From Prosthecobacter algae (GTDB lineage: Bacteria > Verrucomicrobiota > Verrucomicrobiia > Verrucomicrobiales > Verrucomicrobiaceae), in the NCBI RefSeq assembly GCF_039542385.1, contig NZ_BAABIA010000002.1:620001-684000 (forward strand): a stretch of 64,000 nt of DNA. The letters run 5' to 3'. Within the stretch, counting starts at the first letter, position 1; each line of letters opens with the position of its first letter. This document shows positions 41,008-47,523 of this stretch, one piece after another. A program made the translations under genes and the position numbers. Below the pieces are notes generated by a model. It saw only the letters and a program-made list of their open reading frames with translations, was not told the origin of the DNA and searched no databases.

Positions 41008-41928
41008 ATGCCTGCCTTTCTCCGAGCTCACGATAAAGGAGTGGAGTACTCACTCGAGGACTTCACTCTCCTGGGCCGCAGCCCGGATGCGACGATTCGG
41101 CTCACGGATGCAGGCGTTTCCCGGCAACACGCCACCATCCGCCGGGATGGCAATCTTTACTGGGTTTCGGACCTCGGCAGCGCCAATGGCAGCTTCGTCA
41201 ACGACGTGGCGGTGACCACGGCACGCGCCCTCCGCCATGGCGACCGCATCCAGCTGGGCACCTGCATCTTCATTTTCGAAACAGACGAGGGCGACCACGT
41301 TCAAAACACCGGCAGCGGCACCCAGATGCTGCACACCATCGCCCTGCCCATGCGCACGGTGAAGGCGACCCTTTTGGTGGGAGACTTGCGCAACTTCACC
41401 AGCATCTCCGCCCAGCTCAGTGCGGAGCAGGTGGCCACCATGCTGCGGGAATGGTATGCGGACTGCGAGCGCATCCTGAAACCCCGTGGGGCGATCATTG
41501 ATAAATTCATCGGCGATGGCGTCTTCGCCTACTGGGTGGGAGACAGCGAAGAAATGCGCAGCCAAGCCACCGAGGCCGCGCGCCTGCTGAGCAGCCCGGA
41601 AGCTAGCGAATCTCCCGTGCGTAAAATGATGCGCGACGAGATGAACATGGAAGTCTATTGCCACGTCGGCCTGAACATCGGCGATGTGGCCCTGGGTGCC
41701 ATGGGCCGTGGGGTCAACACCGCCGTCGGTGAAGCCGTGAACGTGACCTTCCGCATCGAGAGCCTCACCCGCAAGCTCCAGGTCCCAGTCCTGGCCGGTT
41801 CTTCCTTCGTTGAAGGCTGGTCCGAAGGTGCCAAAGAGTACAAAAACGTCGGCATCCACGCCGTTAAAGGCCAGCCTGAGCCCGTGGAAGTGTACGCCCT
41901 GGTGGAAAGCAATCCGGTGCTGTCCTAG
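41008..41928 (+). CDS. FHA domain fused to class III adenylate/guanylate cyclase
   Basis: A 306-residue soluble protein. The N-terminal FHA domain (residues about 18-95) has LLGRSPDATIRL, GVSRQHATI and NGSFVND, the phosphothreonine-binding pattern. The catalytic domain (about 118-290) has metal-binding aspartates D126 in LLVGDLRNFTS and D170 in IIDKFIGDGVFAYW, with the substrate-selecting Lys166, and later GEAVNVTFRIES, which supplies the transition-state Asn and Arg. It should make cAMP (or cGMP) and be recruited or controlled by a phosphorylated partner, perhaps a kinase substrate. The lysine in KFIGDG favours ATP. No cAMP-binding regulator is nearby. ATG at 41008. Confidence 0.9.
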   Translation: MPAFLRAHDKGVEYSLEDFTLLGRSPDATIRLTDAGVSRQHATIRRDGNLYWVSDLGSANGSFVNDVAVTTARALRHGDRIQLGTCIFIFETDEGDHVQNTGSGTQMLHTIALPMRTVKATLLVGDLRNFTSISAQLSAEQVATMLREWYADCERILKPRGAIIDKFIGDGVFAYWVGDSEEMRSQATEAARLLSSPEASESPVRKMMRDEMNMEVYCHVGLNIGDVALGAMGRGVNTAVGEAVNVTFRIESLTRKLQVPVLAGSSFVEGWSEGAKEYKNVGIHAVKGQPEPVEVYALVESNPVLS

Positions 41929-42743: not shown

Positions 42744-43652
42744 ATGCAAGACCGCCGCTCCTTTCTGAAAAATGCCGCCCTCATCGGCGGTTCTCTCGCC
42801 CTCAGCAGCACCCCGGCCCTGGCGGCCAAGGCTCGCCCGAACAAGCTGTGCTTTTTCACCAAGCACCTCCAGGGCCTGTCCTATGATGACATCGCCAGTC
42901 TGGCTGCGGAAATGGGCATGGACGGCATCGAGGCCCCCATCCGCCCGAAAGGCCACGTGGAGCCCGAAGCCATCGAGACAGAGCTGCCGAAGTTTGTCGA
43001 GGCCTTGAAAAAGCAGGGGCTAGAACTCACCATCATGACCTCCGGGATCAATGAAGTGAGTGCCGAACAGCACACGGAAAAAGTCCTGCGCACCGCCGCC
43101 GCCCTGGGCGTGAAGCGCTACCGCATGAACTACTTCAAGTACGATCTCACCCAGCCTATCTGGCCGCAGCTCCAGGAGATCAAACCGAAGATCAAGGACC
43201 TCGTCCAGCTCAGTTCCGAACTGGGCATCCAGCCCCTGTTTCAAAACCACTCCGGCAAGGACTACGTGGCCGCGCCCATCTGGGACATGTACTCCATCAT
43301 GCGCGAGTACACGCCGGCGCAGTTCGCCTTCGTGTTTGATATTTTTCACGCCACTCTCGAGGGCGGTTACTCCTGGCCAATGAATGCCAAGCTCACCGAA
43401 GGGCACTGGGGCAGCGTTTATTTCAAGGACTTCCAATGGAAGGGCCGCAAGGCCGAAGGCTGCCCGCTGGGCCAGGGGCAGGTGAGTCCAGACTTTGCTA
43501 AAATGGTCGTCAAAAACGGCTACTCCGGCCCCATCTCCCTGCACGTGGAGTACCTGAAAGGCGATGCCAAAAGCCCCGCCGTGCTCAAGGAATTCCGCGA
43601 GGCCCACCTGCGCGACCTGAAGGTGCTGAAAGAGTGGATGGGGTGGAGCTGA
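42744..43652 (+). CDS. Tat-exported sugar phosphate isomerase/epimerase-like TIM-barrel protein
   Basis: A 302-residue protein of the xylose isomerase-like TIM-barrel superfamily. A twin-arginine signal peptide opens the protein (DRRSFLKNAALIGGSLALSS, cut after ALA), as in many Verrucomicrobia and Planctomycetes members. The barrel has EMGMDGIEAPIRP, IKDLVQLSSELGIQPLFQNH with a metal-binding histidine, FVFDIFHATLEG, and VYFKDFQWKG; the late LHVEYL supplies a possible Glu/His pair. Substrate is unknown; related proteins act on keto sugars or glycan degradation products in the periplasm. ATG at 42744 is the start of the Tat signal; upstream codons overlap the previous gene. Confidence 0.88.
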   Translation: MQDRRSFLKNAALIGGSLALSSTPALAAKARPNKLCFFTKHLQGLSYDDIASLAAEMGMDGIEAPIRPKGHVEPEAIETELPKFVEALKKQGLELTIMTSGINEVSAEQHTEKVLRTAAALGVKRYRMNYFKYDLTQPIWPQLQEIKPKIKDLVQLSSELGIQPLFQNHSGKDYVAAPIWDMYSIMREYTPAQFAFVFDIFHATLEGGYSWPMNAKLTEGHWGSVYFKDFQWKGRKAEGCPLGQGQVSPDFAKMVVKNGYSGPISLHVEYLKGDAKSPAVLKEFREAHLRDLKVLKEWMGWS

Positions 43653-43691
43653 TCCCCTGCCCGGCTGTGCGCGGAGGTTGCGCAACGGAAT

Positions 43692-43717
43692 GCGTTGAGC
43701 CATAGGAGGCTCGACGC
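43692..43717 (+). promoter_or_regulatory. Hairpin enclosing the ribosome binding site of the LpxL-WaaF gene
   Basis: GCGTTGAGCC (43692-43701) pairs with GGCTCGACGC (43708-43717) at nine of ten positions plus a possible G-U, around the loop ATAGGA. The Shine-Dalgarno AGGAGG (43704-43709) straddles loop and stem, and the ATG at 43718 follows the stem directly. The fold could limit ribosome access. Confidence 0.55.
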
Positions 43718-45694
43718 ATGGGCAAATCCAGGAAACCGAAGAACCAAACGCTCCAATTGATCAGCCACTGGCTGGTGTATGCGCTGTTTCGCTGCATCGA
43801 ATGCCTGCTGTGGCTGCTGCCGGTGGAGATGGTCTGGTACCTGGGACGCATCCTGGGCACCATTGGCTTTTACGCCTCGCCGAAGTATCGCAACTTGGCC
43901 AAGCACAACCTGCGCATCGCTTTTGGCCGCGAGAAAAAGGAGCACTGGATCCATCACACGGCCAAGGCCCACTTTCAGTCCCTGATCTCCAATGTCCTGT
44001 GTGGCTTTAAGCTGCCGATGATGAGCCAGGCCGAGGTGGAAAAGCGGGTCACAGTGGAGGGCATCCACCACACGCATGAGGCCATGGCGGCGGGCAAGCC
44101 CATCCTCTACCTCGTCTGCCACCTGAGCTGCTGGGAGATCCTCACCCAGGTGCCGTCCCTGTTTGTGTTCGGTCGCCAGCCAGCCACGGTTTACCAGCCG
44201 CTGCGGAACCCGTTTTTGAATGCCCTGCTTATCCGCCGGCGGCGCAAGCTGGGCTACACGCTTTTTGATCGCCAGGATGGTTTCACCGGCCCCATGAAAC
44301 ACATGAAGGAAGGCGGCTGCCTGGGCGTGCTGGTGGATCAGCACGCGGGCGACCACGGCGTGTGGGCTCCGTTTTTTGATCGGCTCGCCTCAACCACACC
44401 CATCGCGGCCATGATGGCCCATCGCGCCCGTGGGGTGCTGATGCCCCTGGCCATCTACGATGACGGCCCTGGCCGCTGGCGCATGGTGTGCAGCGCCCCC
44501 GTGGTGTCCCCTGAGGCCAAGCAGACGGTGGAAGGCCTCACCACGGAGATGAATCGCCGGGTGGAGGAGATGGTGCGTCGCCAGCCAGAAAACTGGTTTT
44601 GGGTGCACAATCGCTGGAAGCTACCGAAACCCCGCTTCCTCCTGCACGACTACAAACGCGGCATCGCCTTCCCCGCCGGGTACGATCCCGCCCGTCTGCA
44701 GCCCTTTGAGCTCCTGGTGCGCTCCCCGAACTGGCTGGGCGATGCCTGCATGGCCTTCCCAGCGGTGCGTGCCATGAAGGCGGGCCGTCCGGACCTGAAG
44801 CTGACCGTCTTTGGCCCGGAAAAACTCCGCGAGCTGTGGGAATCCCAGCCCGAGGTGGATCGCTACATTGGCAAAGACAACAAGGAGGGCCTCTTCAGCG
44901 TGGCCCGTCGCATCAAAAAGACCGGTGTCCGTTTTGATGCCGCCATCCTGCTTACCAATTCCACCCGCAGCACCCTGGAGTTTTGGCTCGCTGGCATCCC
45001 GCGCCTCGTCGGTTACAAAGGTTCCCTGCGCTCCCGCCTGCTGACCCAGATCATCAAGGAGCCAAAGAAAGTCGAAGGCCCGCCCATGCACCACACCTTG
45101 CGTTACCTGCATGTGGCACGCAGTTGCGGAGCGCAGACGGATGGCTGGGATGCCGTCCTGCCTGTGAATACCCTGCCCGCAGGCGGCCCCCTGCGCATCG
45201 GCATCTGTGCCGGGGCGGAGTACGGCCAGGCCAAACGCTGGCCCATGGACCGCTTTGCCGCCGTGATGAAACAGGTGTCCGTCGGCCATCCGCAGATCGA
45301 GTGGGCCTTCTTCGGTGCTCCTGGTGAAGCAGCAATGGGGGAGCAGCTTTCTCAAATGGTCGGCCCTCAGGTCCCGCATGTGAATCTGGTGGGGAAAACC
45401 AAGCTGTCTGGCCTCATCGAGCAACTGCGCACCTGCACGCTCCTGGTCACCAACGACACTGGCACCATGCATCTGGCCGCTGCCCTAGGCGTGCCCACGG
45501 TGAGCATCTTTGGCTCTACCGAGCCCGTGCTTACGGGTCCACTCGGCCCCCAGCACACCGTCATCCGCCACCACGTGCCGTGCAGCCCCTGCTTCAAACG
45601 CGAGTGCCCTTTTGGCCACTACGACTGCATGACCCTCGTCACGCCGGAGCAGGTCGCTGCGGCGGTCGAAAAGAGGCTGGCCCAAACGGCCTGA
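43718..45694 (+). CDS. Fusion of LpxL/HtrB-type lipid A acyltransferase and WaaF-type heptosyltransferase
   Basis: A 658-residue bifunctional-looking envelope protein. Residues about 10-305 are a lipid A lauroyl-type acyltransferase: an N-terminal membrane helix, the catalytic HX4E motif His135-Glu140 in LVCHLSCWEIL, LVDQHAGDHGVWAPFF and RQPENWFWVHNRWK. Residues about 330-655 are a GT9 glycosyltransferase: ELLVRSPNWLGDACMAFPAV, IGICAGAEYGQAKRWP, and LVTNDTGTMHLAAALGVP, which contains the nucleotide-sugar site, then GSTEPVLTGP. Both act at the cytoplasmic face on the lipid A-core precursor, so fusion would couple acylation to core glycosylation. Usually they are separate genes. Strong ribosome binding site AGGAGG. 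The gene for an LptF/G permease follows 110 nt downstream. Confidence 0.9.
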   Translation: MGKSRKPKNQTLQLISHWLVYALFRCIECLLWLLPVEMVWYLGRILGTIGFYASPKYRNLAKHNLRIAFGREKKEHWIHHTAKAHFQSLISNVLCGFKLPMMSQAEVEKRVTVEGIHHTHEAMAAGKPILYLVCHLSCWEILTQVPSLFVFGRQPATVYQPLRNPFLNALLIRRRRKLGYTLFDRQDGFTGPMKHMKEGGCLGVLVDQHAGDHGVWAPFFDRLASTTPIAAMMAHRARGVLMPLAIYDDGPGRWRMVCSAPVVSPEAKQTVEGLTTEMNRRVEEMVRRQPENWFWVHNRWKLPKPRFLLHDYKRGIAFPAGYDPARLQPFELLVRSPNWLGDACMAFPAVRAMKAGRPDLKLTVFGPEKLRELWESQPEVDRYIGKDNKEGLFSVARRIKKTGVRFDAAILLTNSTRSTLEFWLAGIPRLVGYKGSLRSRLLTQIIKEPKKVEGPPMHHTLRYLHVARSCGAQTDGWDAVLPVNTLPAGGPLRIGICAGAEYGQAKRWPMDRFAAVMKQVSVGHPQIEWAFFGAPGEAAMGEQLSQMVGPQVPHVNLVGKTKLSGLIEQLRTCTLLVTNDTGTMHLAAALGVPTVSIFGSTEPVLTGPLGPQHTVIRHHVPCSPCFKRECPFGHYDCMTLVTPEQVAAAVEKRLAQTA

Positions 45695-45804
45695 GAGCGG
45701 GATGCCGACCTTCGTTTTTTCCTAGGCCCCTTCAGATGCGTCCGGGGGTGTGCCTCTGCCCTTGCCTCCGGGCTTATCCTCGCCATCTCTGAGGGTCCGC
45801 ACGC

Positions 45805-47523
45805 ATGACCTGGCTCTACCCATTTCTCAAAAAGCTCCGCGCAGTCGCCCATCGGGTACGCACGTGGCCATTTCTGGGGCGGTCGGCCTTTTCCCTGGCG
45901 CTGCTGGTCATGATCCTCTTGGCCACCCAGGGACATCACCTGGATCATCCCCCCGAAGTCGCCGGTTACGACATTCAGGCGGGCAAGCTTGTCGCCCAGC
46001 AGGGTGTGGGCCCCGCCGGACCGGTGCTGAAAACGGTGAGCTTGCTGCTGCCCTACCTGGATAGCTGGATGCTGGTGGGCGGTGCCGTGTATCTTTTCAT
46101 TCTCCTCCGCCAGTGGGGAAATCCGCCCAAGCTGGTCTTTCCCTCATGGGTGGCCTCCATTTCAGTGGCCGCATGGGCCATCAGTTCAGACATTGCCCAC
46201 CAGCTCGGGGCCATGCAGATGACGGAAATGGGCGAGCCCCTGGCCATGACGGCCTACTGGATGAAGATGGTGATGATCTACGTCGCCTGCATCTGTGTGC
46301 CGCTGCTGATCCACTACTACGTGCGCAGCGGCGCGCTGGAGCGCTACACCCTGCGCACCTTCCTGGCTCCCCTGGTTTTCTGCTTTGTCGCGTTCTGCTC
46401 CCTGTGGATCATTATGGATCTGCTGGACAACCTGAAGGAATTCCAGGATGCCAAATCGGGCCTGGGCCGGGTGGTGAAGTTTTACTTCAGCATCGTGCCC
46501 TTCATTTTTGTCTCGGTGATGCCCGCCTCCCTCCTGCTGGCGGTGCTTTACACGCTGACCAAAATGTCCCGCGCCAATGAGATCGTGGCCATGCTCAGCG
46601 CCGGGCGCAGTGTGGGGCAGATCTTGCAGCCCATCTTTGTGGTGGTGATCACCGTGGCGACGATGAGTCTGGCCGCCAATTACCACTGGGCCCCGCGTGC
46701 CGAAGGCAATCGCGAAGCCGTGATGCGCGCCCTGGGGGCGAAACAAAAGGATTCCATCATGGCCTCCTCCGTCCTGCACCGGGATCCCGTGACGGACCGC
46801 GTGTGGTATGTCGCCTCCCTGCCCTTCTCTCTCCGGGGCGAACGCCTGCGCGGCGTGCAGGTGCGGGAAGTGGGCAAAGATGGCAAAGTGGCCCACGTCA
46901 TCCATGCGGACTCCGCCATGTGGTGGCCCGGCGGGCTGTGGCGCTTTTACGATGGCCAGGAAGTCTTCTATGCCGATGACAAGCCGACCGAGATCAAACC
47001 TTTCCCCCTGGATGCCGAAGGCCGCCATTCACTGGAGGTGAAGAACTTTGAAGAGACGCCCTGGGGCATGGTCAGCTATGCTCTCAAGCCTGACTACATG
47101 GGCGTGCCGGAAATCGTCTCCTACCTGAAGGCCCATCCGAAGGACAGCCCCGAGCGACTGGCCCCCTTCCAGGCGCATTACTACCACCGCTTTGCCATGC
47201 CCTGGCAGAGCTTTGCCCTGGCCCTGGTGGCAGCCCCCTTGGGCATCGCCTACTCCCGCCGTGGCGCAGTGGGCGGCATCGCAGGCTCCATCTTCATTTT
47301 CTTCAGCATCCTGTTCCTAAACAACCTGTGCCTGAACCTGGGCAAAGGAGGGCATCTCCCCCCCTGGTTCAGCCCCTGGATTCCGCATCTTTTGTTCGGC
47401 GTCCTCGGCGTGCTGCTGCTGCACTACCGCTCCCAGAATAAGGACCTGCCCAAGCTTTCCCTGGGCTTCCTCAGCAAGCGCAAGGTGCAGCTCGCCCGGC
47501 CCCGCAACAGGTCTGCCGCCTAA
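45805..47523 (+). CDS. LptF/LptG-type LPS export permease with N-terminal membrane extension
   Basis: A 572-residue membrane protein. The LptG/F core begins near residue 177 (LERYTLRTFLAPLVF), then IIMDLLDNLKEFQ, transmembrane helices at about 235-270 (SRANEIVAMLSAGRSVGQIL as coupling helix), a periplasmic beta-jellyroll domain (about 300-430) and C-terminal helices with APLGIAYSRRGAVGG. LptF/G, with ATPase LptB, extracts LPS from the inner membrane and passes it to LptC and LptA. Extra is a region of about 175 residues before the core, with roughly four membrane helices (ALLVMILLATQ, MLVGGAVYLFILL, VASISVAAWAIS, MVMIYVACICVPLLI). No ABC ATPase or partner permease gene is adjacent. Confidence 0.85.
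   Translation: MTWLYPFLKKLRAVAHRVRTWPFLGRSAFSLALLVMILLATQGHHLDHPPEVAGYDIQAGKLVAQQGVGPAGPVLKTVSLLLPYLDSWMLVGGAVYLFILLRQWGNPPKLVFPSWVASISVAAWAISSDIAHQLGAMQMTEMGEPLAMTAYWMKMVMIYVACICVPLLIHYYVRSGALERYTLRTFLAPLVFCFVAFCSLWIIMDLLDNLKEFQDAKSGLGRVVKFYFSIVPFIFVSVMPASLLLAVLYTLTKMSRANEIVAMLSAGRSVGQILQPIFVVVITVATMSLAANYHWAPRAEGNREAVMRALGAKQKDSIMASSVLHRDPVTDRVWYVASLPFSLRGERLRGVQVREVGKDGKVAHVIHADSAMWWPGGLWRFYDGQEVFYADDKPTEIKPFPLDAEGRHSLEVKNFEETPWGMVSYALKPDYMGVPEIVSYLKAHPKDSPERLAPFQAHYYHRFAMPWQSFALALVAAPLGIAYSRRGAVGGIAGSIFIFFSILFLNNLCLNLGKGGHLPPWFSPWIPHLLFGVLGVLLLHYRSQNKDLPKLSLGFLSKRKVQLARPRNRSAA

Follow-up and report, generated by a model that had tools for sequence, protein, structure and literature searches.

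Secondary acyltransferases of the LpxL/LpxM type (HtrB/MsbB) and the heptosyltransferase WaaF (RfaF) both use lipid A precursors as substrates at the cytoplasmic face of the inner membrane, and the transfer of the first heptose (HepI) by WaaC comes between LpxL-type acylation and the transfer of the second heptose (HepII) by WaaF. Two activities in one gene are also known from HldE of E. coli (kinase/adenylyltransferase, fused according to the MG1655 annotation) and from the LpxC/FabZ fusion of Verrucomicrobia and Bacteroidetes, but the enzymes differ from those considered here; the latter fusion is noted for Verrucomicrobia in the accessible part of PMC3087551. A description of an acyltransferase fused to a heptosyltransferase of family GT9 was not found in the open full-text literature (as distinct from subscription journals and preprints), including the accessible parts of PMC3087551, PMC13135019 and PMC12527988; in the text of the first of these, the words 'heptosyl' and 'fusion' occur 0 times.

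The window analyzed here, a stretch of 64,000 nucleotides from Prosthecobacter algae, contains such a gene at positions 43718..45694 of the plus strand. According to the list of open reading frames and profile searches, it starts with ATG, comprises 658 codons (658 amino acids) plus a stop and has no internal stops; a Shine-Dalgarno-like AGGAGG (43704..43709, plus strand) lies 8 nt 5' of the ATG. An earlier note, made from the sequence alone, had read this frame as a fusion of two LPS enzymes that are normally encoded separately, and the fusion is genuine, as PF03279 and TIGR02195 are matched in one frame. The N-terminal half (Lip_A_acyltrans, PF03279, residues 6-301, 43733..44620, plus strand) is delimited by Pfam, alignment and the structural model, the C-terminal half (WaaF-type GT9, TIGR02195, residues 332-652, 44711..45673, plus strand) by NCBIfam and alignment, and the segment between them (residues 303-328, 44624..44701, plus strand) is predicted to be ordered (block pLDDT 93-96). 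The order of domains is unusual; the component domains are ordinary. The only in-frame alternative starts in residues 290-344 are GTG296 and GTG334, both without a Shine-Dalgarno sequence; a GGAGG lies 5 nt upstream of GTG286, a codon of the acyltransferase half, so that an additional shorter GT9 product may be made. A scan of positions 43300-46000 yielded no promoter-like sites and one terminator-like site, and shuffled sequences give no fewer.

The acyltransferase half matches PF03279 with E-value 1.1e-46 and 159.8 bits, far above the gathering score of 22.3. Residues H132/E137, R169 and D200 of E. coli LpxL, of which R169 and D200 matter in that enzyme, align with H135/E140, R175 and D207 of the fused protein, so that the His-X4-Glu pair and the conserved Arg and Asp of LpxL/LpxM acyltransferases are all found in the alignment. 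The likeness to LpxL/LpxM (5kn7, 5knk) extends to the fold and to a predicted N-terminal helix (residues 10-33). Unlike these enzymes, the window protein bears a C-terminal heptosyltransferase and scores under every tested cut-off: none of the curated LpxL, LpxP and LpxM thresholds of NCBIfam is reached, the best LpxL-type model being PRK08419 (148 bits, cut-off 248), followed by TIGR02207 (105, cut-off 297.8) and TIGR02208 (95.6, cut-off 336). For this reason the half is named LpxL/LpxM-type rather than LpxL. The same genome encodes two further PF03279-type proteins (L002 and L003).

The GT9 half matches PF01075 in residues 403-635 (E-value 4.6e-38) and exceeds the cut-off of the WaaF equivalog TIGR02195 (202.4 bits, cut-off 134.6). 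NWLGD (338-342), K506 in KRWP (506-509) and NDTGTMH (579-585) align with E. coli WaaF and contain what we take to be the catalytic Asp, the donor-binding Lys and the DTGxxH motif, respectively, all three being present. The earlier note had pointed to catalytic marks in both halves, and the alignments bear this out: His135/Glu140 fall on their LpxL counterparts, and the GT9 motif NDTGTMHLAAALG occupies residues 579-591. The protein thus resembles WaaF (E. coli, 1psw) in the TIGR02195 match, the fold and the GD, AKRWP and NDTG/NDSGxMH marks, but, unlike WaaF, has a complete N-terminal acyltransferase. In 63 aligned fused proteins H135, R175, D207, N338-D342, K506, N579, D580, G582 and H585 show no variation, and E140 is conserved in at least 90%. 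Among 113 fused frames outside Akkermansia, counted as distinct in the last 150 residues, 105 carry the complete set of GT9 marks (GD, K, D[ST]GxxH); the eight misses are four frames cut by the end of a contig or stretch and four broken genes from family f15.

These broken genes belong to genus g45 (L133, L194, L195 and L196 from genomes G280, G350, G372 and G471, respectively), where the fused gene is interrupted between the two GT9 lobes in 4/4 genomes and the second piece retains KRWP and NDTGxMH; in another f15 genus (L204, L205) it is unbroken at this place. The g45 genes may encode a GT9 of two polypeptides, or they may be decaying. A programmed frameshift is disfavoured, since the frames overlap by 17, 68 and 31 nt and lie 122 nt apart in the fourth genome (one junction was read, and the overlaps come from coordinates).

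The structure prediction proposed in the earlier note was made with AlphaFold2 from the 63-sequence alignment and gave a confident model (pLDDT 93.4, pTM 0.91) with an ordered inter-domain segment. The best Foldseek matches are E. coli WaaF 1psw (E-value 1.7e-20, 27% identity) and Veillonella GT9 3tov, while the acyltransferase half is matched best by A. baumannii LpxM 5knk/5kn7, then by mycobacterial PatA; the GT-B fold of solved WaaF and WaaC structures is recognized through 1psw, 6dfe and 2h1h. As the two domains are similar in size, pTM of 0.91 points to a defined mutual orientation, and the fused protein is predicted to be a rigid two-domain protein.

The window genome (6.1 Mb, 99.86% complete) encodes homologues of HldA, HldC, HldD, GmhA, GmhB and WaaA, 33-43% identical to those of E. 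coli, so that, judging by similarity, ADP-heptose synthesis is present in the same genome. It also has a separate WaaC-like gene (G000:C5:503687), whose product is 27% identical to E. coli WaaC and matches best TIGR02193 (127.6 bits, below the cut-off of 185.3). The HldA kinase is matched in 10/10 representative genomes with an intact fusion. A WaaC-like gene adjoins the fusion in G060 (f5), G128 (f12) and G131 (f13) and lies one gene away in G172 (f3), where two LPS-kinase-family genes (PF06293) follow the fusion and flank the WaaC-like gene; beside the fusion of G010 (f5) and G175 (f9) it is absent. For the WaaC-like proteins of G172, G060 and G128, TIGR02193 is again the best match (125-136 bits, below the cut-off). 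In the window, the next gene, 110 nt downstream (45805..47523, plus strand), encodes an LptF/LptG-type LPS-export permease (PF03739) with about 180 extra N-terminal residues ahead of the Pfam match. An LptF/G gene stands beside the fusion in the relatives L008 and L037 as well, but a conserved operon was rejected, as this neighbour is found in close relatives only. Upstream, a 306-aa ORF (41008-41928, plus strand) resembles, by eye, an FHA domain followed by an adenylate/guanylate cyclase domain.

Taken together, the ADP-heptose pathway and the WaaC-like gene make lipid A acylation and HepII transfer, at the same membrane face, the likely role of the fused protein, and we assign a probability of about 0.75 to the whole explanation, namely, a bifunctional inner-membrane acyltransferase/HepII transferase. 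Both activities and the acceptor are inferred. The N-terminal helix would anchor the acyltransferase half in the inner membrane, this half would give the Kdo-lipid A precursor a secondary acyl chain, as LpxL/LpxM do, the separate WaaC would act between the two steps, and the C-terminal half would move HepII from ADP-heptose onto the inner core. Given the rigid packing of the halves, WaaF is probably anchored at the membrane face where the lipid A precursor is made, with the two activities at a fixed ratio. The simplest benefits would be that WaaF gains a membrane anchor, that the stoichiometry is fixed and that both activities are concentrated locally on a shared membrane-bound acceptor.

Alternatively, the GT9 half could be active on another sugar, or could add heptose to a position other than that of WaaF. 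GT9 is a broad family, and the Akkermansiaceae group described below, residing in genomes mostly lacking an HldA match (found in 5/103 non-Akkermansia ones), suggests that the donor can change; we nevertheless consider this rather unlikely for the window protein, which exceeds the WaaF equivalog cut-off, keeps the donor-binding marks and shares its genome with homologues of the whole heptose pathway. The altered LPS envisaged in the earlier note is an unneeded assumption for this genome, though it may apply to Akkermansiaceae, where the GT9 half is changed. The ordered hand-over of substrate, also proposed there, is unsupported. A channelling machine that passes the acylated product straight to its own GT9 site would be in keeping with the rigidity of the predicted packing (pTM 0.91) and with a fusion that apparently arose more than once, but HepI addition by WaaC intervenes in the known pathway and a separate WaaC-like gene is present, which makes direct hand-over of the product improbable. 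The scores below the LpxL equivalog cut-offs and the existence of two other PF03279-type paralogues could also be explained if the LpxL half acted on a different acceptor (e.g. a lysolipid) and its link to WaaF were purely regulatory; this is very unlikely, as the catalytic residues are kept and a WaaF-type GT9 half is joined to members of two different LpxL paralogue groups (see below).

Both halves lie in one frame in 80/80 named relatives' loci (the best 80 of 110 found, chosen by similarity, and hence a test of the junction rather than of frequency), and the junction is open in 7/7 genomes of the window's family f1, including G199, where two match pieces within one 688-aa frame were counted as fused. 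The stop or frameshift between the halves, named in the earlier note as the observation that would overturn the fusion, was found in none of these, and a sequencing error joining two genes can be dismissed on account of these independent genomes and of the purifying selection acting on both halves. The latter is seen within the genus, where dN/dS is 0.096-0.154 in the LpxL half and 0.072-0.157 in the GT9 half (6 pairs, Nei-Gojobori method; dS of 0.70-1.73 is partly near saturation).

The survey of domain architectures covered 288 genomes of the phylum, 94 in the window's class and 194 outside it. Among the matches listed, a hand count gives the fusion in one frame in 42/94 class genomes from 11 families (f1, f2, f3, f5, f6, f7, f9, f11, f12, f13 and f14); 12 of the 42, from f2, are of the Akkermansia type, and one (G193) has an internal TGA. 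Two genomes of only 0.9 Mb (G036, G057) are among the carriers. No match spanning both halves is among those listed for the 194 genomes outside the class, and in none of 264 plasmid records with a match does it cover 80% of the query. The fusion is widespread in the window's class, and the fused protein is confirmed as conserved and is probably bifunctional.

In phylogenetic trees (68 GT9 rows and 49 LpxL rows, with shortened Akkermansiaceae rows scored as unfused) the fused rows fall into more than one group, and the starred branches require no fewer than five label changes in the GT9 tree and three in the LpxL tree, gains and losses being lumped in this count. For the f66 and f103 fusions, the LpxL halves group with the window genome's paralogue L002 (100/99) rather than with its fused LpxL half, and the GT9 halves adjoin the window's group (98/88), which suggests a separate fusion event. 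A third group (100/100 in both trees) is made up of the fusions of f3, f5, f9, f12 and f13; the branches between these and the f1-type fusions are weak in both trees (53/2, 79/65), and a single origin of the two types is possible. Overall, the trees suggest that the joining happened more than once.

Adjacent but separate genes show how it could have happened. In G334 (f66) the TAA stop of lpxL is followed after one base by the ATG of waaF; in G342 (f84) the lpxL and GT9 frames are in register with one stop between them; and in G099 (f5), again with a single stop between frames in register, the junction reads TGA-GCC-ATG. These pairs (L197, L198 and L207) look like states before or after fusion. 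The G099 one is a different, E. coli-like pair, since the LpxL clusters with that of E. coli and two further rows, and the long-branch GT9 with E. coli WaaF (96/94). In f66, the likely route of fusion is that an lpxL-waaF pair lost its stop codon, and, by analogy, this would most likely be the route in the window's lineage, too; the LpxL lineage of the window itself showed no such pair in unfused form.

The fusion has a different fate in the AKKERMANSIACEAE branch, where genus g5 was taken as Akkermansia by the A. muciniphila qPCR primer site (9/22 g5 genomes, 0/6 others), the primer pair occurring together with the species name in 121 papers. The Akkermansia fused protein retains the LpxL catalytic residues. 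GD, Lys and DTGxxH each occur in 0 of 14 Akkermansia fused frames, 12 of which reach the later GT9 motifs, and the catalytic Asp is replaced by Glu in 13 of the 14. The changed half is still selected, as follows from its dN/dS of 0.080-0.243 (0.093-0.156 for the LpxL half; 15 pairs). The model of this protein, whose input alignment also contained intact fused proteins, has pLDDT 86.6 and pTM 0.85 and keeps the GT9 fold (1psw: Z 19.5, rmsd 3.3, 291 aligned).

Akkermansiaceae other than Akkermansia have a shorter fused frame, with 21 tails of 117-172 aa following the acyltransferase. Taken as one profile, the tails match the GT9 N-lobe (hhalign probability 98.5, E-value 1.5e-15, with Akkermansia rows included in the N-lobe profile) and not the C-lobe (4.0). 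Many of these genomes also encode a stand-alone GT9-like protein (45 genomes among the matches listed). All 24 examined (20 fetched, L214-L233, and L157-L160) have Glu in place of the catalytic Asp and have lost the Lys; in their DTGxxH motif, Asp is kept in 21 and His in 23. Most proteins of this group have a CSPC-like motif, and they occur mainly in genomes without an HldA match. The four of these proteins that are in the GT9 tree group with the Akkermansia fused GT9 halves (100/99), though the placement of Akkermansiaceae rows is unsure because of their long branches; the shared Asp-to-Glu change (24/24 stand-alone proteins and 13/14 Akkermansia frames) supports the kinship independently of the tree.

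The heptose pathway is distributed differently between these groups. In 117 genomes, taken to be the same ones in the HldA and fusion searches, HldA is matched in 13/14 Akkermansia versus 5/103 other Akkermansiaceae; in the latter five the fusion match ends by residue 370 and thus is not intact, so the co-occurrence of fusion and heptose is imperfect. HldE, GmhA, GmhB and WaaA are matched in 5/5 Akkermansia genomes examined, and a clear HldD (45-46%) in four of them, G231 having only 30-31% epimerase matches. PF01075 finds one stand-alone GT9 each in G021, G111, G231 and G024 and two in G286; in G024 it also matches the separated half of the fused gene, whose halves lie in different frames (L127, 3731-5870), which is either real or a sequence error. 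The stand-alone GT9 proteins near HldD in G021, G024 and G111 (L154-L156) have intact marks; L154 matches best TIGR02193 (65.3 bits, below the cut-off).

According to the accessible part of PMC12527988, the Akkermansia inner core has one heptose, the published core structures being proposed from mass spectrometry, and A. muciniphila has a low-identity lpxL-like gene, with no GT9 half mentioned there. One heptose in the inner core fits a loss of HepII transfer. At slightly less than even odds, we read these data jointly as a re-purposing of the fusion in the sister family Akkermansiaceae, with the GT9 Asp changed to Glu and the donor-binding Lys lost. In Akkermansia, where the His of DTGxxH is lost as well, the GT9 half might, on this tentative reading, be a selected non-heptosyltransferase partner, serving as a scaffold or as a regulator of the acyltransferase; the other genera might, with the same reservation, have a stand-alone Asp-to-Glu clade and a fused copy shrunk to the GT9 N-lobe. 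If true, the re-purposing would account for the inner core of Akkermansia having a single heptose, and the stand-alone clade would consist of GT9-like proteins whose donor or function is new.

The fusion described here physically links two steps of LPS synthesis across much of a class in which LPS chemistry has received little study. Should the two genes have been joined more than once, acylation of lipid A and heptosylation of the inner core would be functionally tied in this class. What is most interesting is found beyond the window, in the changes that the fusion has undergone in Akkermansiaceae: the Akkermansia branch offers a directly testable explanation, at the sequence level, for the inner core with one heptose reported for a medically discussed gut symbiont.
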